From NCBI GenBank assembly GCA_028823235.1, contig JAPKBW010000007.1:1-64000 (forward strand): a DNA stretch of 64,000 nt, given 5' to 3'. Below the pieces are notes generated by a model. The model had not been told where the DNA came from. It searched no databases and saw nothing but the letters and a program-made list of their open reading frames with translations. This stretch comes from Longimicrobiales bacterium. GTDB taxonomy: Bacteria > Gemmatimonadota > Gemmatimonadetes > Longimicrobiales > Gaopeijiaceae. Shown here piece by piece: positions 117-47,073 of this stretch (position 1 is the first letter of the stretch; every line of letters begins with the position of its first letter). A program made the translations under genes and the position numbers.

Positions 117-173
117 AACTAAGAAGCGGTTGCTACTGAGCGGCCCATGCAACAGGACCGCAAGACGTTAGAA
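117..173 (+). repeat. attC-like site 1 (short form)
   Basis: The left arm reads ACTAAGAAGCGGTTGCTACTG (written here as ACTAAG + AAGCGGTTGCTACTG less the shared AAG) and the right arm GACCGCAAGACGTTAGAA. The central 40-50 bp present in other copies is missing, leaving a 57-bp hairpin. The GTTAGAA end box is intact; the left box is ACTAAG rather than CTAAC. Confidence 0.7.
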
Positions 174-1245: not shown

Positions 1246-1338
1246 GCCCAACGATGATAGGCGGGCGGGTCACTCGCCTATCGGCTCGCAGCCCTTGTTA
1301 GCAGAAGGGCCGTGCAGTAGAAACGCAGAACGTTGTAG
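1246..1338 (+). repeat. attC-like site 2 (degenerate)
   Basis: The right arm is clear (CGTGCAGTAGAAACGCAGAA then GTTGTAG at 1332-1338). The left box is GCCCAAC at 1246-1252; a second GCCCAAC at 1195-1201 could be the true left end. The left arm is poorly conserved. Confidence 0.55.
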
Positions 1339-1370
1339 AGAATCAGTAAGCCCGGTGGATCATCCAGCGG

Positions 1371-1913
1371 TTAGTTCATCGATGGGTCGTATGGCGTCAG
1401 GGATAATTGCCGGTACGCCGGTCCTTTCCGCTTGAGCACGCTACTCCAGAGCAAGTCTGGCGCGGTGGTGAATACGTCATCCTCAAGAGCGGATTCGATG
1501 ATCCAACTTTCGGCGGCCATCTCTGCCTCGAGTTGACCCGGCCCCCATCCTGAGTAACCCGCGAAGACCCTCGCTCTGACAATACTTGGTTCGATGTCGG
1601 ACTGTACTTGGCCCACAAGAAACCCTACGGACCCGAACACCAGGATATCTGCTGACTCCGGGGTCTTAAACTCGGCCAAAAGCACGGGACTACCCGGCTG
1701 GACTGGGCCACCCTCGAATAGCGACTCACCTGGAGGCACCAGATCGCTCAAAGTGGGGAGCGCATTCTGAACTGAGATGCCAAGAGTCCGATTCAGTACC
1801 ACGCCCAGCGACCCCTCCGAGTTATGCTCCCCAACCAGAACCACGGTGTGGCGGAAGTTCGGGTCGTGCAGACCACCGCTGGAAATTAGCAGGCTGCCGC
1901 GCAGATTCTCCAT
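1371..1913 (-). CDS. YqgE/AlgH family protein (DUF179)
   Basis: A 180-aa member of the YqgE/AlgH family, a compact cytoplasmic fold of uncertain function once linked to alginate regulation. The family signatures are present: N-terminal LRGSLLIS followed by DPNFRHTVVLV, the EGGPVQPG segment near 67-74, and FAGYSGWGPGQLEAE near 117-131. Full length and normal architecture. A GAGG-containing stretch lies just upstream of the ATG. It is encoded opposite to the flanking repeats. This is normally a single-copy housekeeping gene, so finding it between attC-like sites suggests that these repeats do not mark only typical cassette cargo. Confidence 0.92.
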   Translation of the reverse strand: MENLRGSLLISSGGLHDPNFRHTVVLVGEHNSEGSLGVVLNRTLGISVQNALPTLSDLVPPGESLFEGGPVQPGSPVLLAEFKTPESADILVFGSVGFLVGQVQSDIEPSIVRARVFAGYSGWGPGQLEAEMAAESWIIESALEDDVFTTAPDLLWSSVLKRKGPAYRQLSLTPYDPSMN

Positions 1914-2012: not shown

Positions 2013-2115
2013 GACTAACAAGCAGTTGCTACTGACACGGGTTACAGTTGGGTCGGACACGGATACGCACGGGTCAGCAAGAGTGGCCGGGCAGCAGAAT
2101 CGCAAGACGTTAGAA
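2013..2115 (+). repeat. attC-like site 3 (well conserved)
   Basis: Left box GACTAAC (2013-2019) is followed by AAGCAGTTGCTACTGACACGG; the right arm GGGCAGCAGAATCGCAAGAC ends in GTTAGAA (2109-2115). Length 103 bp. The SnoaL-like gene starts 22 bp after the right end. Confidence 0.85.
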
Positions 2116-2137: not shown

Positions 2138-2578
2138 ATGACATCGACGCAGAGACAAGCTGCGACCCTGCTGCTGATTGCTCTCGCGTCATGCGCGGGA
2201 CCACCGGCTGCGACGGAAGCGGAGGATCGTGAGCAACTCTTGGCACGAATCGAACAGTTCAACGAAGCCATCCGCGAAGGCGATGTAGAGAAGTACACCG
2301 AGGTCTTTGTGGACGACTTCGTATTCACGTGGGCTCCCGACGGACAGATCTACGCTCCGGAGGAAATTTTCCCGAATGTCGTTCCCACTCCGGACCATGC
2401 TCCCAGCGTGGACGAGATCGTCGTTCGCATCTACGGAGACGCCGCGATCGTAAACGTGCGCATGAGGCAGCTGCCCCATGAGGCTGGTGCGCGCGTCACA
2501 TTCAGCTTCGCCCGCGTCGAGGGCGCATGGAAAGTGGTCGCGTATCAGAGCACGAATATCACAGACCCGGCCGGCTAA
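2138..2578 (+). CDS. SnoaL-like (NTF2-fold) lipoprotein
   Basis: A 146-aa lipoprotein with a signal peptide and lipobox ALASC (Cys19), followed by a cone-shaped NTF2/SnoaL-type domain like the DUF4440 group. The sequence shows the N-terminal helix REQLLARIEQFNEAIREGDVE split over residues ~31-51, a strand containing VFVDDFVFTWAPDG, and a terminal FSFARVEGAWKVVAYQSTN. Family members can be enzymes or ligand-binding proteins; no catalytic residues can be assigned here. The start codon is 22 bp downstream of attC-like site 3 and the gene ends 34 bp before site 4, so it forms a textbook single-gene cassette in the repeat orientation. Confidence 0.8.
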   Translation: MTSTQRQAATLLLIALASCAGPPAATEAEDREQLLARIEQFNEAIREGDVEKYTEVFVDDFVFTWAPDGQIYAPEEIFPNVVPTPDHAPSVDEIVVRIYGDAAIVNVRMRQLPHEAGARVTFSFARVEGAWKVVAYQSTNITDPAG

Positions 2579-2611: not shown

Positions 2612-2728
2612 TTCTGAAAAGCAGTTGCTACTGACACGGTTTCGCGGGTAGGCGGGCGGGCCACTCGGCGCCAACTCGCGTACCCTTTGGGGAGGCTGGC
2701 CGTGCAGCAGAATCGCGAGACGTCGGGC
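2612..2728 (+). repeat. attC-like site 4
   Basis: Left arm TTCTGAAAAGCAGTTGCTAC and right arm GTGCAGCAGAATCGCGAGAC are conserved, but both end boxes have drifted (CTGAAA on the left, GTCGGGC on the right). Length about 117 bp. Confidence 0.75.
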
Positions 2729-4320: not shown

Positions 4321-4418
4321 GCCTGACGAGCGTTTGCTGGCCAGGTTTAGAGTCGGGTCGCGCGCGGTGTGCGCGGTCAGCTAGTGTGACGGTGCGGCAG
4401 AAACGCGAGACCTTAGAT
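4321..4418 (+). repeat. attC-like site 5
   Basis: Left box GCCTGAC (4321-4327) with a diverged left arm; right arm GTGCGGCAGAAACGCGAGAC ends in CTTAGAT (4412-4418). Length 98 bp; the GNAT gene begins 27 bp downstream. Confidence 0.7.
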
Positions 4419-5083: not shown

Positions 5084-5178
5084 AGTATAAGTGATCGCTA
5101 CAGTCGCGGATTGCAGATCGGGCGCGCTACACGCTCGTCAAATGGCCGACCGTGCAGTAGCATCGCGAGACGTTAGGA
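5084..5178 (+). repeat. attC-like site 6
   Basis: The left arm (AGTATAAGTGATCGCTAC) is diverged; the right arm GTGCAGTAGCATCGCGAGAC ends in a perfect GTTAGGA (5172-5178). Length about 95 bp. Confidence 0.7.
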
Positions 5179-5914: not shown

Positions 5915-6012
5915 TCTCTAATAAGCAGTTGCTGCGGACACGGGTTACTGTCGGGTGGTACGCGAAGGGCGCGGTCAGTTAGAATGGCCGCGCAGCTGAG
6001 CCGCGAAAGAGG
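5915..6012 (+). repeat. attC-like site 7
   Basis: Left box CTCTAAT with arm AAGCAGTTGCTGCGGACACG; right arm GGCCGCGCAGCTGAGCCGCG is followed by a degraded end (AAAGAGGAAG instead of AGACGTTAG). The right arm reads in frame into the downstream gene, creating a false N-terminal extension. Confidence 0.7.
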
Positions 6013-7039: not shown

Positions 7040-7141
7040 ACCGAACAAGCGGTTGCCATCGTCACCGGTTACAGTTGAGACGCTCGACCTCGCGGGCAGT
7101 CAACTAGCGCTGCTGCGCAGTGGAATCGCGAGATGTTAGAA
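7040..7141 (+). repeat. attC-like site 8
   Basis: Left box ACCGAAC followed by AAGCGGTTGCCATC; right arm GCGCAGTGGAATCGCGAGAT ends in GTTAGAA (7135-7141). Length 102 bp; the M42 gene starts 37 bp downstream. Confidence 0.82.
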
Positions 7142-8348: not shown

Positions 8349-8447
8349 TTCTAACAATCCATTGCTACTGGAACGAACTCGCGGGTGGGTAAGTCAGGTA
8401 ACATGGTGGGTTTGTTAGCAGGCGGGCCGTGCCGTCACGTATGTGAA
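8349..8447 (+). repeat. attC-like site 9 (right end degraded)
   Basis: Left box TTCTAAC (8349-8355) and arm AATCCATTGCTACTG are clear. The right arm keeps GGCGGGCCGTGC but the GAATCGCGAGACGTTAG end has been replaced by CGTCACGTATGTGAAAG. Confidence 0.65.
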
Positions 8448-8552
8448 AGTGCGCGGCCCGGTGCGGATCGCGATCTTGAGAATCGACTTGGCCGGGGACT
8501 ATTGAAAACGCGCGGACATCCATCCGCCGACGCTCAAAAAGGAAGATGCTCA

Positions 8553-10066: not shown

Positions 10067-10162
10067 GTCTAACAAGAGATTGCTCCTGCCACGGGTTACC
10101 TATTAGGTACGATTCGCTTGCCTCGAGGTGGGTCCAGGCAGCAGAATCGCGAGACGTTAGCA
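10067..10162 (+). repeat. attC-like site 10 (well conserved)
   Basis: Left box GTCTAAC (10067-10073) plus AAGAGATTGCTCCTGCCACG; right arm GGCAGCAGAATCGCGAGAC ends in GTTAGCA (10156-10162). Length 96 bp. Confidence 0.85.
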
Positions 10163-15454: not shown

Positions 15455-15561
15455 ATGTAACAAGCGATTGTTACTGACACGGGTTGCGTAGTCGGCAGGT
15501 CGGGTGGCTCTTGTTCTTTGTCACGAGGTCGCCCGTGCAGCAGAAACGCAGAACGTTCGGC
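15455..15561 (+). repeat. attC-like site 12
   Basis: Left box ATGTAAC then AAGCGATTGTTACTGACACG; right arm GTGCAGCAGAAACGCAGAAC ends in GTTCGGC (15555-15561). Length 107 bp. Confidence 0.82.
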
Positions 15562-16563: not shown

Positions 16564-16660
16564 GCCTAACAAGGGATTGGGGCAGCCGCTCGAGAAGGGT
16601 GGGCACCTCGATGCGTTTGTGGACGGGGTGGTCGTGCAGCAGAACCACGAGACATCAGGC
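16564..16660 (+). repeat. attC-like site 13
   Basis: Left box GCCTAAC (16564-16570) then AAGGGATTGG; right arm GTGCAGCAGAACCACGAGAC ends in ATCAGGC rather than GTTAGGC. Length 97 bp. Confidence 0.75.
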
Positions 16661-17407: not shown

Positions 17408-17509
17408 TCCGAACAAGCGGTTGCGACCGACACGGGCTCTCGGGTGGGTGAGTCGGTAGCTGGGGTTGTTAACAGGCCGCCCACGCAGCAGAATCGCGAG
17501 ACATTCGGT
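17408..17509 (+). repeat. attC-like site 14
   Basis: Left box TCCGAAC then AAGCGGTTGCGACCGACACG; right arm ACGCAGCAGAATCGCGAGAC ends in ATTCGGT (17503-17509). Length 102 bp. Confidence 0.82.
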
Positions 17510-18343: not shown

Positions 18344-18452
18344 ACTATCGATCAAGCGCCGCTAATGGCACGGGTTGGATAGTCCGTAGGTCGAGTAGCG
18401 CTTGTGGGTTATCATGCGGCCGCCCGTGCAGTAGAATCGCGAGTCGTTAGAA
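18344..18452 (+). repeat. attC-like site 15
   Basis: The left arm is diverged (ACTATCGATCAAGCGCC); the right arm GTGCAGTAGAATCGCGAGTC ends in GTTAGAA (18446-18452). Length 109 bp. Confidence 0.75.
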
Positions 18453-20889: not shown

Positions 20890-20991
20890 GCCCAACAAAC
20901 GGTTGCTTCTGACACGAGTTACAGCTGGGTCGTGTGCGCAGGACGCCGTCAAGCTAGTGCGGCCGTGCAGCAGAATCGCGAGTCGTTACGC
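20890..20991 (+). repeat. attC-like site 16 (well conserved)
   Basis: Left box GCCCAAC then AAACGGTTGCTTCTGACACG; right arm GTGCAGCAGAATCGCGAGTC ends in GTTACGC (20985-20991). Length 102 bp. Confidence 0.85.
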
Positions 20992-21372: not shown

Positions 21373-22902
21373 ATGAAGTCCATATGTGCCGTCACCAGAC
21401 TATATGCAGCCGCTTTCGTTGTTCTCGTGGCGGGGTGCGCTGCGGAAGGCGGCATGGCGGGAAGCCCCTCTTCCTTCCTGATAGTTGGCGCAACCGTCGT
21501 CGACGGGACCGGTGCACCTGGCCGGGTTACGAACGTGCGCGTGCTCGGCGACCGAATCGCCGCAATCGGGGGTCTGGAAGCGGAGCGCGGCGAGACGGTC
21601 GTCGAAGCCGACGGGCTGGTCCTCGCTCCCGGTTTTATCGACACGCACAGCCATCATGACGGTGGCCTCACCGAGACTCCTGAGGCACTCGGCGCGGTTA
21701 GTCAGGGCATTACGACGATCATCGTCGGCCAAGACGGCGGATCGCCACTTCCGTTGAGCGACTTCTTCGGTGAGGTCGAGGCGACGTCGGTCGCGATCAA
21801 TGTCGCGGCGTACGCAGGCCACAACTCCTTGCGAGGCGCCGTCATGGGTGATGATTTCCGCCGTCCGGCAGATGATCAAGAGGTCCAGGAGATGGCGGAC
21901 CTCCTCCGGAGGGAGCTCGAAGCCGGGGCGATCGGATTGTCGACCGGGCTGGAGTACGACCCAGGCATCTATTCGGAGACTTCGGAAGTTCTGGCTCTCG
22001 CTCACGTAACCGCAGACGCGGGGGGTCGTTACATCAGCCATATGCGCAGCGAAGATCGGGCGTTCTTCGAAGCACTGGACGAGCTGCTGACGATCGGCCG
22101 CGAAACCGGGATGCCGGTCCAGGTCGGACACATCAAACTCGCCATGAAGAGCCTCTGGGGTCGCACCGATGAGGTCATCGCGATTCTCGACTCGGCGCGA
22201 GCCGAAGGGATCGACGTCACTGCGGATATCTACCCGTATGAATTTTGGCAGTCGACCATGACGGTGCTCTTCCCGGACCGAGAGTTCACCAGGGAGGCTG
22301 CACAGTTCGCTCTCGAAGAACTCGCGCCACCTGAGGGGATGCTCATTGCTGCGTTCGACCCCGACCCGTCCTACGTCGGGTTGACCCTCGCCGAGATCGC
22401 CGCGGCGCGTGGCCGCCCCGCAGTCGACGTGTACCTCGAGCTGATTGCGGAGGTCGCCGCGATCGACGGTCGAGAGAGTGTGATCGCCCGCAGTATGGTT
22501 GCCGACGATATCGGAGCTTTCCTCTCTTGGCCGCACACCAACGTCTCAAGCGACGGTTCTTTGGCCGGCCGGCACCCGAGAGGCTTTGGAGCGTTCACGC
22601 GGGTTCTTGCACTCCATGTGCGAGAGCGGGGAGATGTGACGTTGGAGGAAGCCATCCGAAGAATGACGTCGCTCGCCGCGGAGCACATGGGTCTAGTGAA
22701 CCGAGGCACATTGGCCGTAGGGGCGTTCGCAGACTTCGTCCTATTCGACCCCCACATCGTGACGGACCGAGCCACACCGGAGTCACCGAACGAACCGTCC
22801 GTGGGAATCGCCGGTGTGTGGGTCAACGGTGAACAGGTCTATGGCTCGGAGGGCACTACGGGAGCCAGGCCGGGTCGCATTCTCAGGAAGACAACACGAT
22901 GA
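21373..22902 (+). CDS. lipoprotein amidohydrolase, N-acyl-D-amino-acid deacylase family
   Basis: A 509-aa D-aminoacylase-like amidohydrolase that should release D-amino acids from N-acyl derivatives. Signal peptide with lipobox VAGC (Cys22), so it is an outer-face lipoprotein. The metal motif is intact: FIDTHSHHDGG (His92, His94). Other family signatures are GQDGGSPLP, YAGHNSLRGAVMG, GLSTGLEYDPG, YISHMRSED, VGHIKLAM, and SSDGSLAGRHPRGFG. The stop overlaps the start of the next gene by 4 bp (ATGA), so the two are translationally coupled. Unlike the paralogue at 8553, all metal ligands are present. Confidence 0.93.
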   Translation: MKSICAVTRLYAAAFVVLVAGCAAEGGMAGSPSSFLIVGATVVDGTGAPGRVTNVRVLGDRIAAIGGLEAERGETVVEADGLVLAPGFIDTHSHHDGGLTETPEALGAVSQGITTIIVGQDGGSPLPLSDFFGEVEATSVAINVAAYAGHNSLRGAVMGDDFRRPADDQEVQEMADLLRRELEAGAIGLSTGLEYDPGIYSETSEVLALAHVTADAGGRYISHMRSEDRAFFEALDELLTIGRETGMPVQVGHIKLAMKSLWGRTDEVIAILDSARAEGIDVTADIYPYEFWQSTMTVLFPDREFTREAAQFALEELAPPEGMLIAAFDPDPSYVGLTLAEIAAARGRPAVDVYLELIAEVAAIDGRESVIARSMVADDIGAFLSWPHTNVSSDGSLAGRHPRGFGAFTRVLALHVRERGDVTLEEAIRRMTSLAAEHMGLVNRGTLAVGAFADFVLFDPHIVTDRATPESPNEPSVGIAGVWVNGEQVYGSEGTTGARPGRILRKTTR

Positions 22903-24374
22903 CCGCACTCAGTGTTCGCACCCATCGCCTTCTGGACACCGGCCCGTGGCTGGGCGCGGGTCTATTCGCCCTCGCGCTCCTCGTGCTTTACCCCGGCGAG
23001 GCTCGAGCGCAGGCGGCCCTCGAGCGCACCGAGGTGGACGCGGTGTTCGCCGACTTCGGTATGAACACGCCTGGCTGTGCGCTCGGTGTCGTATCGGACG
23101 GGCGACTCATCTACGGGCGGGGATACGGTCTCGCCAACCTCGAGCACGACATCCCGATCACGACCCACTCGGTATTCCGTTCCGGATCGGTATCGAAGCA
23201 GTTCACGGGAGCTGTCGTCGCGTTTGCTGCCATGGAAGGGCACCTGAGTCTGGAAGACGAGCTGCGAACGTGGGTCCCCGAGCTGCCAGATTACGGAAGC
23301 CGGCTGACGCTCCTCCACGCCTTGAACCATACGAGCGGTCTGAGGGACTACCTGACGCTGATGGATCTGAGGGGCCTGCGAAATGACGACTTCTACACAG
23401 AGCTCGACCTCATTGAACGGCAGGCCGCCCAAGAAGAGCTCAACTTCGACGCCGGCTCAGAGCACCTGTACAGTAACTCGGGCTATTTCCTTCTCACCGA
23501 GGCAGTGGCACGCGCGGTCGGCAAGCCATTCCGCGAGTACGCGGACGAAGTCCTTTTTGAACCGCTCGGCATGACCAACTCGCACTTCCACGACGATAAC
23601 AACCATGTGGTTCCGCTCCGAGCCGACGGGTATGCTCCCCTGCCCGACGGCAGCTACCGAACCTCGATGACAACGCTAGAGATGATCGGGGATGGAGGCG
23701 TTTACACCTCCATCGAGGATATGGCGAAGTGGCTGGTCGCCCAGGAACAGGACGGGCTGAGGGCGGGCCTCAACGACATCGTTCAAGCGCGGGGGGTGCT
23801 AAAGTCAGGGGACGACATCCCCTACGCGCTGGGGATCACCCACGGCAACTATCGCGGCCTGCCGACAATCGGACACGGCGGGTCGTTCGTCGGATTTCGC
23901 GCCCATACCCTTCGCTTCCCCACCGAGGGTTTTGGTCTGGTGGTCCTCTGCAATCGATCCGACGGCGATCCGGGGAGGAGAATCCGACGCGTGGCCGATG
24001 TCGTGCTCGCGGGACGACTCGGTCCGATACCGGAGGAGTCCGCGGAGGAGCGGCGGGCCCGCGAGGGCGTACCCGCGGTGACTCCAGAGAACCCCTCTGA
24101 GTATGTGGGCGTGTACTACAGCCCCGAGCTGGACGTGGAGTACCACTTCTCGGAGGAAGACGGGGCCCTGCGGGTGCGAGCAGGTAGCGCGATTGAGGAG
24201 CAGGTCTATCGGATGGACGGGGACACACTTGCGGCGGGCTCACCCTTGCCCGGCGATCGATTCTCGCCCTCCCTCGTATTCCGTTTCGAGAGAGACGGCA
24301 GGTCGGTATCGGGCTTCGAGCTCGATGCCGGTCGGGTTGTGCGCCTGCGCTTTCGGAAGGTGCGTGGTGGTTAG
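22899..24374 (+). CDS. exported serine beta-lactamase-fold hydrolase
   Basis: A 491-aa member of the class C beta-lactamase/penicillin-binding-like family (S12). Signal peptide to about ARAQ (residue 38). Active-site motifs: SGSVSKQF (Ser97, Lys100), LYSNSG (Tyr191, Asn193), and HGGSFVGF (KTG-box equivalent). A C-terminal beta-barrel domain from about residue 385 begins EYVGVYYSPELDVEYHF. Members include D-aminopeptidases, esterases and D-peptidases. Its coupling to a D-aminoacylase suggests a role in D-amino-acid-containing peptides rather than antibiotic resistance; that is an inference from context. Confidence 0.92.
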   Translation: MTALSVRTHRLLDTGPWLGAGLFALALLVLYPGEARAQAALERTEVDAVFADFGMNTPGCALGVVSDGRLIYGRGYGLANLEHDIPITTHSVFRSGSVSKQFTGAVVAFAAMEGHLSLEDELRTWVPELPDYGSRLTLLHALNHTSGLRDYLTLMDLRGLRNDDFYTELDLIERQAAQEELNFDAGSEHLYSNSGYFLLTEAVARAVGKPFREYADEVLFEPLGMTNSHFHDDNNHVVPLRADGYAPLPDGSYRTSMTTLEMIGDGGVYTSIEDMAKWLVAQEQDGLRAGLNDIVQARGVLKSGDDIPYALGITHGNYRGLPTIGHGGSFVGFRAHTLRFPTEGFGLVVLCNRSDGDPGRRIRRVADVVLAGRLGPIPEESAEERRAREGVPAVTPENPSEYVGVYYSPELDVEYHFSEEDGALRVRAGSAIEEQVYRMDGDTLAAGSPLPGDRFSPSLVFRFERDGRSVSGFELDAGRVVRLRFRKVRGG

Positions 24375-44158: not shown

Positions 44159-44458
44159 ATGGATTGGACCGCTATTCGTGCGATCGGCGAGGTCGGTGTC
44201 ATCGTGTCGCTGCTCTACCTCACCACTCAGGTGAGGGACAGCACAAAGGGCTTCCGAGACTTCACATATCAGGCACTTGTGGACGCATCACTCGGCATCT
44301 CACTAAGGCTGGGAGGGGTGATCGCACGGGCCGAAGCCAGCAACCCGAGAGTGCTGAGTAGACCCTCTGTTTCACCGCATCCACCGGTGGATTATACGAC
44401 ACTGTTTTGCACGGCTGGTCCGGTGCTCCGGCCAAGTTGCAGAATCATGGCGCCCTAA
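44159..44458 (+). pseudogene. truncated small membrane protein gene
   Basis: An ATG at 44159 opens MDWTAIRAIGEVGVIVSLLY and LTTQVRDSTKGFRDFTYQALVDA. This is the recognisable N-terminus of a common bacterial family of about 170-200 aa with one N-terminal membrane helix (typically ...VITLLYLATQVRENTK...). After about residue 60 the reading becomes non-coding-like and stops within the next attC-like repeat. It is therefore probably a truncated or frameshifted relic. Confidence 0.55.
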
Positions 44459-44525
44459 GCAGAATGAGAGCATGAAGAGGAATCTGCGCGGCGCGACCGT
44501 GCAACAGAATCGCGAGACGTTAGAA
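44452..44525 (+). repeat. attC-like site 19 (short form)
   Basis: Left box GCCCTAA and a diverged left arm; right arm GTGCAACAGAATCGCGAGAC ends in GTTAGAA (44519-44525). Length 74 bp, with the centre shortened. Confidence 0.7.
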
Positions 44526-44575
44526 TGCCGGTTCAGCGAATAACGCTTCCCACCGGGGCCCCATGTGGAGAGACT

Positions 44576-45700
44576 ATGAGTAGGGTGATTTCGAGATCGA
44601 TCGTTCGTATCGCGACCTTGGGCTGTCTTTTCTTCGGTCTCGTGTCCTGTGCGGCGTCTCAGGATGCCGCGTGGGGAGGGGAACTGGTTGCCCGGATCGA
44701 CTCTCTCGCTGAGGCGACGCTCCGCGAGGGGCCGGTCGCGGGCTTGACGATCGGCGTGAAGCGTGGCGGTGATCTGCTCATGGTGAAGGGCTACGGATAC
44801 GCAGACATCGAGAATAGCGTGCCGATGACGGCAGAGACCGTGTATCGGATCGGTTCTCTCACGAAGCAGTTCACGGCCGCGGCGGTCATGCAGCTGGTCG
44901 AGGCGGGCCTCATTGGCCTCGACGATCCGATGACACGGTACTTGCCGAACTATCCCACGCAGGGTCACGAGGTGAGCATTCGGCATCTCCTCACGCATAC
45001 TTCGGGCATAAAGAGCTACACGAGCATCGGAGACGCGTTCTGGCTCAAGGCCGCCCTATTGGATCTCTCCCACACCGAGATGCTTGAGCTCTTTCAAGAC
45101 GAGCCATTCGACTTCGCTCCTGGTGAGGGGTACAGCTACAACAACTCAGGGTACTATCTGCTCGGCATGATCATCGAGGAGGTGAGCGGTGAGTCCTATG
45201 ATGGTTATCTCGGTACCCACGTCTTCGGGCCGCTGGGTTTGTCACGTTCGTCCTATTGCCATGAGGCCCAGATTATCCGCGGCAGGGCGGAGGGCTATGA
45301 ACAGGGCCCCGATTGGCTTTTGAATGACGGGAGCATTTCCATGAACACCCCGGGAGCAGCGGGCGCGCTGTGCTCCACGGTGCCAGACCTTCTGTCTTGG
45401 ACCACGGCGCTACGGAGTGGACGGGTCGTAACTGAAGCGAGCTACCAGGCCATGGCGACTTCTGGCCTACTGGACGACGGCTCCGCGACCGGATATGGAT
45501 TCGCTCTTGGTGTTACCCCTCTTGGGGAGCATTCCAGGGTGGCCCACACCGGTGGCATCAACGGCTTCAGCACAGTGATGGCACACTATCCGGAGTCTGG
45601 CCTCGATATCGTAATTTTGTCCAACACCGGCAGCGGTGCCCCCGGGCAAGTGGAGGACAGGATCGCTCGATGGGCGCTCGGGATGCCGCTCAAGAACTAG
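44576..45700 (+). CDS. lipoprotein serine beta-lactamase-fold hydrolase
   Basis: A 374-aa S12/class C-like serine hydrolase. Lipobox LVSC near residue 23. Motifs: RIGSLTKQF (Ser and Lys of SxxK), SYNNSGYYL (Tyr-x-Asn), and HTGGINGFS (KTG-box equivalent). It lacks the extra C-terminal barrel of the homologue at 22.9 kb and is closer to a single-domain esterase or D-Ala-D-Ala-type enzyme. The ATG at 44576 has GGAGAG 5 nt upstream; the longer frame starts at the edge of attC-like site 19. One-gene cassette ending 39 bp before site 20. Confidence 0.92.
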   Translation: MSRVISRSIVRIATLGCLFFGLVSCAASQDAAWGGELVARIDSLAEATLREGPVAGLTIGVKRGGDLLMVKGYGYADIENSVPMTAETVYRIGSLTKQFTAAAVMQLVEAGLIGLDDPMTRYLPNYPTQGHEVSIRHLLTHTSGIKSYTSIGDAFWLKAALLDLSHTEMLELFQDEPFDFAPGEGYSYNNSGYYLLGMIIEEVSGESYDGYLGTHVFGPLGLSRSSYCHEAQIIRGRAEGYEQGPDWLLNDGSISMNTPGAAGALCSTVPDLLSWTTALRSGRVVTEASYQAMATSGLLDDGSATGYGFALGVTPLGEHSRVAHTGGINGFSTVMAHYPESGLDIVILSNTGSGAPGQVEDRIARWALGMPLKN

Positions 45701-45739
45701 TGTTGTCCCTGCGCTGTGGTGGGGCTAACCGAGCCAGGG

Positions 45740-45846
45740 TTCTCACAAGCGGTTGCTACTGGCACGAGTTGCCAAATGAGTGAGTCAGATAGCGTTCAGG
45801 GGTTGTTCGCAGGTCGCCCTTGCAGCTAAATCGCGAGACGTTAAGA
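45740..45846 (+). repeat. attC-like site 20 (well conserved)
   Basis: Left box TTCTCAC then AAGCGGTTGCTACTGGCACG; right arm TTGCAGCTAAATCGCGAGAC ends in GTTAAGA (45840-45846). Length 107 bp. Confidence 0.82.
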
Positions 45847-45891
45847 AGAACAAAGATCAAATTTCGTGGTGACCGAACCCCCAGAAAGCGT

Positions 45892-46407
45892 ATGACCCTG
45901 AACTACGACATCACTGAGGACGGCCTCTGGGTCATGACGTTTGCCGATATGGCTGCGGCCAAGAGCGACCGGAAGGCGGTATCGCCACTTGATGTACTTC
46001 TCGGGCTCATGTTGCTGAGCGATCCCGCGTTCTCGGAGGACCTTCCAAGTCTCGCGAGCCAGCTACTGAGGGCTGCCTGCCTACACCCCGATGATCTTCC
46101 CACATTGCGCGACTTGGGCTGGACGAATCTCCCTGATCAGCCTTCTTTCGGCGGAGTGATGACTCCGGAAGTGACGGAGCTTCTTGGGGGAGCCCTGCGC
46201 TGTGCTCGCGATTTCGCGACGCCTTATATCGGTGCAGAACATCTTCTGGTGAGCGTGCTCGCGGGAAATTTTGGCCCCGAACTGGAATCTTGGATGGATG
46301 ATTCCGGCCTCAGCGAAGCAGAGGTCTTCAGGCAGTGGGTTAAAGTGTTGCTTCAGATCCAAGGTGGTGACATTGGCTTTGGCCCCGCTTCAGTTGTGGA
46401 AGCATAG
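45892..46407 (+). CDS. Clp N-domain-like protein
   Basis: A 171-aa cytoplasmic protein that reads as two Clp_N (Clp R) repeats: AAAKSDRKAVSPLDVLLGLMLL near residues 20-41, with its downstream helices, and LLGGALRCARDFATPYIGAEHLLVSVLAG near 105-133. Such domains bind substrates or adaptors of ClpA/ClpC unfoldases; no ATPase domain follows. A free-standing ClpN-like protein could modulate Clp proteolysis. The start at 45892 is chosen because the longer frame from 45820 reads through attC-like site 20 (MQLNRETL...). It is followed 9 bp later by an unknown gene in the same cassette, which suggests they work together. Confidence 0.75.
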   Translation: MTLNYDITEDGLWVMTFADMAAAKSDRKAVSPLDVLLGLMLLSDPAFSEDLPSLASQLLRAACLHPDDLPTLRDLGWTNLPDQPSFGGVMTPEVTELLGGALRCARDFATPYIGAEHLLVSVLAGNFGPELESWMDDSGLSEAEVFRQWVKVLLQIQGGDIGFGPASVVEA

Positions 46408-46416
46408 GTCGGCCGA

Positions 46417-46947
46417 ATGGAACCCATTCTTGTCGGTTACTTCCCCAAGCAGGTGCGTCTGCCGCCTCCGTCGCTCACAGGGGTGGGCATCGAAGAGATC
46501 GGCAGCGTCGCGCGCTGTATCGCGTCTGGACCCGTTGGTTGGTTCGACCTTGGGAAACACAATGCGTGGGGCTGTTACAGCGACCCGGACACTGCGTGGT
46601 CCTTGGTCCCGCCTGACCAACAAACGGACTACCGACTCTGGGCGTACGAAGTCTACCCAATGGAATTTTTCGACGGCGCAGCGCACGCCTTGGAGATTGC
46701 TTCTCCGGAGGTGACACCGCTCGCAGGAGACTTCCGAGCGGTCGGCTGGGATGCGGTCTCTCGATCAGGGGGTCAAGACTTCGAGTGCTCTCCGCTCTCA
46801 TGCAACTACATGGTCGAGCGCTACACGGTCAACGCATACTGTCTCGTCAATCTCCAAGATGCGCAGAACCTCGCGGCGACTGCCGAGCGAGAGGGCTGTG
46901 AGCCGGGGCCCTACGTGGTGGTCAACGTTTGGCAACGTGATGTCTAA
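46417..46947 (+). CDS. protein of unknown function paired with the ClpN-like gene
   Basis: A 176-aa soluble protein that I do not recognise. It is rich in aromatic residues and cysteines: GYFPKQVRLPPPSLTG at the start, IASGPVGWFDLGKHNAWGC, LWAYEVYPMEFFDG, CSPLSCNYMVERYTVN and VVVNVWQRDV at the end. No signal peptide. It begins 9 bp after the ClpN-like gene. Its TAA stop lies inside the left box GTCTAAC of attC-like site 21, exactly as in classical gene cassettes. The pairing with a Clp adaptor-like protein might indicate a stress, toxin-antitoxin or immunity module, but nothing in the sequence proves this. Confidence 0.75.
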   Translation: MEPILVGYFPKQVRLPPPSLTGVGIEEIGSVARCIASGPVGWFDLGKHNAWGCYSDPDTAWSLVPPDQQTDYRLWAYEVYPMEFFDGAAHALEIASPEVTPLAGDFRAVGWDAVSRSGGQDFECSPLSCNYMVERYTVNAYCLVNLQDAQNLAATAEREGCEPGPYVVVNVWQRDV

Positions 46948-47042
46948 CAAGCGATTGCTCCTGACACGGGTTGCCGAAGGGGTGAGTCAGGTAGGGTCTA
47001 GGGATTGTTGGTAGGTCGCCCGTGCAGACGGCAGGTCGAACC
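46942..47042 (+). repeat. attC-like site 21 (right end degraded)
   Basis: Left box GTCTAAC (46942-46948) overlaps the stop of the preceding gene; arm AAGCGATTGCTCCTGACACG is perfect. On the right GTCGCCCGTGCAG is kept but the GAATCGCGAGACGTTAG end has become ACGGCAGGTCGAACC. Confidence 0.75.
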
Positions 47043-47073
47043 GATGGAGGAGAGACACTCGTGAGACTCAGGC

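Follow-up and report, generated by a model that had tools for sequence, protein, structure and literature searches.

A decayed attC site in a Gemmatimonadota cassette array with no detectable integrase

An imperfect inverted repeat at positions 2015–2113 of a 64,000-nucleotide stretch of DNA (the window) carries extra, unpaired bases in one of its arms. This raises the questions of whether the repeat is an attC site, and of whether this copy could still direct an integrase to one strand. It is the bottom strand of attC that the integron integrase IntI folds and cuts; which strand is used, and with it the orientation, is determined by extrahelical bases (PMC8946536, PMC3053210). In natural attC sites, both extrahelical bases are found on the same side (PMC3053210). 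Larouche and Roy studied sites of the T-N6-G, T-N6-C and A-N6-C types, for which six nucleotides is the best spacing (PMC3053210). The unpaired bases in the window repeat are the standard strand-marking bases of attC, so the element is of a known kind. The window genome (G000) is a Gemmatimonadota MAG of 3.14 Mb that is 97% complete. We conclude that the site is very probably a degraded attC in the cassette array of a sedentary integron that is without its integrase (CALIN).

Anatomy of the site and its array

Alignment of the site with 13 other copies yields a stem of 21 pairs, of which 18 are Watson–Crick in this copy. The left arm (2015–2040) reads CTAAC AA GCAGTT G CT A CTG A CACGG and the right arm (2087–2113) reads CCGGG CAG C AG AATCGC AAGAC GTTAG. 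The outer part of the aligned stem consists of the R box CTAAC/GTTAG, an unequal unpaired spacer (AA versus GAGAC) and a 6-pair L box. Inward of the L box lie an extra G, two pairs, an A·C opposition, three pairs, an extra base and five pairs. Each core site agrees with the attC consensus at six of seven positions, and CTAAC/GTTAG is the consensus in relatives. Based on established attC anatomy, strand exchange would take place at G^TT in the R' box (Table 1).

Two extrahelical bases, about six nucleotides apart, are positioned on the same arm: G2028 sits 8 nt inside the CTAAC box, with A2035 six nucleotides further. The first of these is G in 15 of 15 window sites and the second is A in 8 of the 15. 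At the position equivalent to the intervening A2031/C2095 mismatch, about half of the related sites have A·C and the other half G-C.

The first-pass annotation had described pairing arms whose extra bases all lie on the left (+) strand, specifically a G after TT and an A after CTG. The alignment bears this out, and both bases are present. The pairing it proposed, in CG-TT-CT-CTG-CACGG blocks, holds in part: the ‘CG’ and ‘CACGG’ blocks belong to the family consensus and here pair incompletely because of A·C (2024/2101), G·T (2025/2100; C·A on the bottom strand) and A·G (2037/2090) oppositions, which constitute the stem damage in this copy. The right-arm reverse complement that it quoted (...CTCGCG...) is that of the family consensus; the actual letters here are CTAACGTCTTGCGATTCTGC.

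Table 1. Coordinates of the site, its parts and the other features of the array (CM, covariance model)
Feature	Position	Strand	Basis
attC (59-be), decayed copy	2015..2113	+	CTAAC...GTTAG; CM 88.4 bits, E 1.6e-20
R'' box CTAAC	2015..2019	+	sequence and alignment; inverse core site GACTAAC, 6/7 to RYYYAAC
Extrahelical base 1	2028	+	G on + strand, C on bottom; position equivalent to G20''
A2031 opposite C2095	2031	+	unpaired mismatch between the two bulges; alignment
Extrahelical base 2	2035	+	A on + strand, T on bottom; position equivalent to T12''
R' box GTTAG	2109..2113	+	sequence; core site GTTAGAA, 6/7 to GTTRRRY
AlgH/DUF179 ORF, cassette ending at the 2015..2113 attC	1371..1913	-	Pfam; antisense to array
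SnoaL-like/DUF4440 ORF, cassette starting at R' of the 2015..2113 attC	2138..2578	+	Pfam; one ORF in interval
attC relic, short terminal structure	118..172	+	CM 35.0 bits
Right half of very degraded attC	1310..1340	+	repeat family D1; missed by CM
attC, R'/R'' decayed	2613..2727	+	CM 84.4 bits
attC, decayed	4322..4417	+	CM 60.8 bits
attC, left arm decayed	5084..5177	+	CM 67.8 bits
attC, right end decayed	5917..6012	+	CM 39.8 bits
attC	7041..7140	+	CM 74.7 bits
attC	10068..10161	+	CM 75.3 bits
attC	15456..15560	+	CM 78.1 bits
attC relic	16565..16659	+	CM 29.9 bits
attC	17409..17508	+	CM 86.0 bits
attC, left arm decayed	18348..18451	+	CM 57.6 bits
attC	20891..20990	+	CM 80.1 bits
attC relic, only right end good	44391..44524	+	CM 17.3 bits; right-end pattern, 1 mismatch
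attC	45741..45845	+	CM 75.0 bits
attC, only left arm good	46943..47048	+	CM 45.7 bits; left-arm pattern, 1 mismatch

The window contains approximately 17 attC copies between 118 and 47,048, on the + strand throughout. Fifteen of these, every one on the + strand, have E < 1e-4 by a covariance model whose training set consists in part of window sites, so that its detection is biased toward the decayed window copies. Within the window, 11 matches to the right-end motif and nine to the left-end motif were found, versus none for either in 100 shuffles. A generic palindrome detector, which is strand-blind, found no window site, and a detector with explicit architecture was used instead. Core boxes are broken in several window sites, with GTC, CTT or ATT in place of GTT. 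The Rfam search and the tRNA scan of the window returned no match.

The sites form a tandem array of one orientation with ORFs between them. The intervals from 172 to 47,048 (n=15, excluding a gap of 23.5 kb) contain one ORF in 11 cases and two in 4, and about a third of the cassette ORFs are oriented against the array. The products include a short-chain dehydrogenase, AlgH-like and SnoaL-like proteins, peptidases (M20, M42 and S9), GNAT, HAD, alpha/beta hydrolases and an aminotransferase. The 23.5-kb gap (20,990–44,391) is filled by ordinary chromosomal genes, for example a carotenoid cluster and an AcrB-type pump, and the array therefore falls into two attC clusters, 118–20,990 and 44,391–47,048. 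In one over-long cassette, a 12-bit model match at 8350–8454 lies exactly between the two ORFs and is possibly a nearly erased attC.

Related sites and integrases

The proposed stem is paired in 95.9% of cells among 137 distinct sites from related genomes. These sites contain 233 compensatory cells, versus a shuffle mean of 77, and none of 500 shuffles reaches 233. When the partner is slid by one to three columns, pairing falls to 27–46% and compensatory cells to at most 34. Base 1 (equivalent to G2028) is G in 135/137 of these sites, and base 2 (equivalent to A2035) is occupied in 137/137, by T or A in 132. The identities and spacing of the left-arm bulges indicate that the bottom strand reads (T/A)-N6-C, and the site therefore fits a known attC class, the (A/T)-N6-C bottom strand tested in PMC3053210.

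We found no match over the cut-off for the integron integrase (TIGR02249) in the 97% complete window genome. Tyrosine recombinases on contigs C8 and C15 were rejected as IntI, since they give two-piece matches that skip the IntI-specific segment and score far below the cut-off; the split matches of these two best candidates are like those of Xer proteins. Position 1 of the window is the first of its contig (C7:1), which leaves room for an integrase in unassembled DNA. The covariance model locates other sites of the same family in this genome on C4 (two), C12 and C24. The two C4 sites (79086 and 79958) bracket a clean 880-base cassette. This unit (G000:C4:79086–80071) is apparently intact, with both attC sites folding well and IntI undetected in the genome, and its 880-base interval holds an ORF that, judged by eye, is SGNH-hydrolase-like.

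True IntI genes are present in three members of the same genus (G004, G006 and G008), with a fragment in a fourth (G010). In G008:C29, IntI (22137–23078) adjoins an attC site of the same family at 23896, and this attC family is also found beside IntI in G030:C58, G037:C44, G018:C74 and G032:C30. For 10 of 15 IntI loci in relatives, the contig ends no more than 1.5 kb away in the 3' direction. Across the sampled phylum, IntI scores over the curated cut-off in 121 of 346 genomes, a high prevalence. Scanning around 28 IntI loci with the explicit-architecture detector gave 34 attC sites, all located 3' of IntI (34/34), and none 5' of it in the 202 kb scanned. Read in the direction of IntI, every one of the 34 carries the extra bases on its left arm; base 1 is G on this strand in 34/34, and the bulge spacing is N6 in 28/34. 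The positions of the sites and the left-arm bulges thus place the Gemmatimonadota IntI upstream of the array and co-directional with it.

The attC identity proposed in the first-pass annotation is supported by the boxes, the tandem array in a single orientation, the cassette-like ORFs, the N6 bulges on the correct arm, the covariation and the genuine IntI genes that adjoin sites of this family in relatives. An origin from Xer-like or phage repeats was rejected on account of the linkage to IntI.

Folding, stem decay and competing explanations

The attC hairpin is not the minimum-energy fold of the 2015–2113 copy on either strand. For the bottom strand, the minimum is -5.1 kcal/mol (z +1.5 to +1.7) and the attC fold lies 2.2 kcal/mol above it; for the top strand, the minimum is -8.9 kcal/mol (z about +1) and the attC fold lies 1.7 kcal/mol above it. 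The copy is therefore filed as an attC relic rather than a functional attC. The single-strand attC hairpin is the minimum-energy fold for none of the 15 window sites, whereas it is for C12:40544, C4:79086 and C4:79958; the bottom strand of C12:40544 reaches -25.8 kcal/mol (z -3.0) as a complete attC hairpin. Decay is consequently not universal in this genome. The first-pass annotation had taken the lack of a stable imperfect hairpin as grounds for refutation; such a hairpin is indeed lacking for this copy on both strands but not for the family, in which C12:40544 folds fully.

Stem integrity follows the presence of integrase. The bottom-strand minimum is the attC fold in 0/15 window sites, 38/66 sites of IntI-bearing relatives, 7/21 sites of relatives without detected IntI and all three intact sites of the window genome. 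With sites rather than independent events as the statistical unit, the mean number of Watson–Crick stem pairs (of 21) is 14.8 in the window versus 18.6 in IntI-bearing relatives (p 3e-7), and 17.1 in relatives without detected IntI (p 7e-4 versus IntI-bearing relatives). The three intact sites elsewhere in the window genome average 20.3 of 21. The lower pairing in the window persists at stricter score cuts.

Folding energies show no preference for the bottom strand (66 sites, McNemar p 0.51), a result that fits recognition through the bulges and not through stability, without being proof of it. Wobble asymmetry among the relatives' sites (37 bottom-wobble versus 51 top-wobble cells) is uninformative on strand. 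The one-sided bulges are the sole indication of strand choice. That these bulges make the present copy a strand-selected substrate, as had been claimed, is not supported: the copy and its window neighbors are decayed and do not fold as attC, IntI was not found in the genome, and the energies favor neither strand in the family.

In a functioning array, such an attC folds its bottom strand into a hairpin, on one arm of which a pair of extrahelical bases (T and C in this copy, with six-nucleotide spacing) shows IntI which strand to cut. Cassettes are thereby inserted in one orientation. In the window genome the sites are drifting: boxes and bulges can still be read, but stem pairs have been lost and the hairpin is no longer the minimum. 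We consider it probable that the window sites were once recombined by a Gemmatimonadota-type IntI using the bottom strand, and that they decayed after the integrase was lost.

An alternative is that the array is still live: the assembly would lack its integrase, or the enzyme would act in trans, and imperfect stems would be tolerated through transient hairpin capture. Assemblies often break at arrays, as the contig edges close to 10/15 IntI loci in relatives illustrate, and the window does begin at a contig end; the attC fold of the 2015–2113 copy is only 2.2 kcal/mol over its bottom-strand minimum, and three intact sites survive elsewhere in the genome. We nevertheless regard a live array as unlikely, given that IntI was not found in a genome that is 97% complete, that the attC fold is the minimum in 0/15 window sites and that several core boxes are broken.

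There is very little probability that the copies belong to some other interspersed palindromic repeat, REP-like or terminator-like, unrelated to integrons. Their intergenic positions, the single occurrence of some and the cassette ORFs running in both directions would suit such a repeat, but the single orientation, attC boxes, one-sided N6 bulges, conserved GTTAG end and cassette-sized intervals would not; no Rfam family matches, and the adjacency to IntI in relatives contradicts it. It is similarly hard to credit the bulges as by-products of independent arm decay that are silent on strand choice. Several other mismatches are present in this copy and strand energies are equal in the family, as that explanation would have it, yet no other unpaired positions are as well conserved in relatives as the bulges (G in 135/137, base 2 in 137/137, N6 spacing), and near IntI genes throughout the phylum they lie on the left arm at every site (34/34), which contradicts it for the family. 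The degraded attC thus remains our preferred reading of the site.

Comparison with known integrons

The site resembles the T-N6-C and A-N6-C attC sites of sedentary chromosomal integrons (PMC3053210) in its R''/R' boxes, its L box and its six-nucleotide-spaced bulges on one arm, as well as in its unpaired central spacer, variable terminal structure and tandem cassettes. It differs from them in that the Gemmatimonadota sites seen have C on the bottom strand at the G20''-equivalent position throughout, in an additional mismatch that separates the bulges at half of the sites, and in the decay of the window copies. By the CALIN criterion, at least two attC sites lie within 4 kb of each other; the window sites are spaced in this way and IntI is absent, although the contig edge leaves some doubt on the latter. 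The array is like a CALIN (PMC8618304, PMC9024848) in having many attC sites in a genome where IntI was not found at the sensitivity of the search, and unlike one in that the window begins at the edge of its contig, where assembly could conceivably have separated intI from the sites, the intervals are large and a 23.5-kb gap holds ordinary chromosomal genes. In a reverse integron, intI is read toward attI and in the same sense as the cassettes. The co-directional arrangement of the Gemmatimonadota IntI and its array is that of the reverse integrons of Treponema (PMC3607928), which are from a different phylum; here the orientation is seen in relatives of the window genome, itself without detected IntI.

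Catalytic residues and W219 are kept in 54/54 IntIs, and 41 of these have HH at the T12'' histidine pair (H240/H241). Six IntIs belonging to the window's own family have xP or LS in place of the pair, and the attC sites of this IntI family have A or T at the T12''-equivalent base of the bottom strand.

The VCR left arm contains, in order, an L box, an extrahelical base, a stem and a second extrahelical base. The left-arm elements of the window site follow the order of the VCR/VchIntIA complex (PDB 2a3v). The Gemmatimonadota sites differ from that complex in having C rather than G at the G20''-equivalent position, and some IntIs of the window's family differ from VchIntIA in lacking the H240/H241 that hold T12''.

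A possible, though on balance doubtful, extension is that Gemmatimonadota harbor a distinct integron lineage with a co-directional upstream integrase and C instead of G at the G20''-equivalent position. In the window's family, the T12'' histidines would be missing and A would be as frequent as T, the pocket and bulge would have co-evolved, and the window array would be a fossil of this lineage. Gemmatimonadota are listed among the phyla with integrons (PMC8618304), and our literature search found no paper describing these features for them.

Placing this single repeat in a well-understood system leaves the general picture of integrons unchanged, and shows that one-sided bulges are readable even in decayed sites. 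The related genomes offer a natural setting for comparing the integrity of attC stems in the presence and absence of integrase, and the suggested phylum-wide attC signature could be used for testing co-evolution of integrase and extrahelical bases.

In named genomes, the right-end motif is found almost exclusively in Gemmatimonadota MAGs. The same attC right end also occurs on contigs of a Chloroflexi MAG and a Gammaproteobacteria MAG, which may be misbinned contigs or reflect cassette transfer. One Gemmatimonadota MAG (records JAOTVA010000xxx) contains at least 77 sites of the window's attC family, in two structural subtypes: A·C with an A bulge and G-C with a T bulge.
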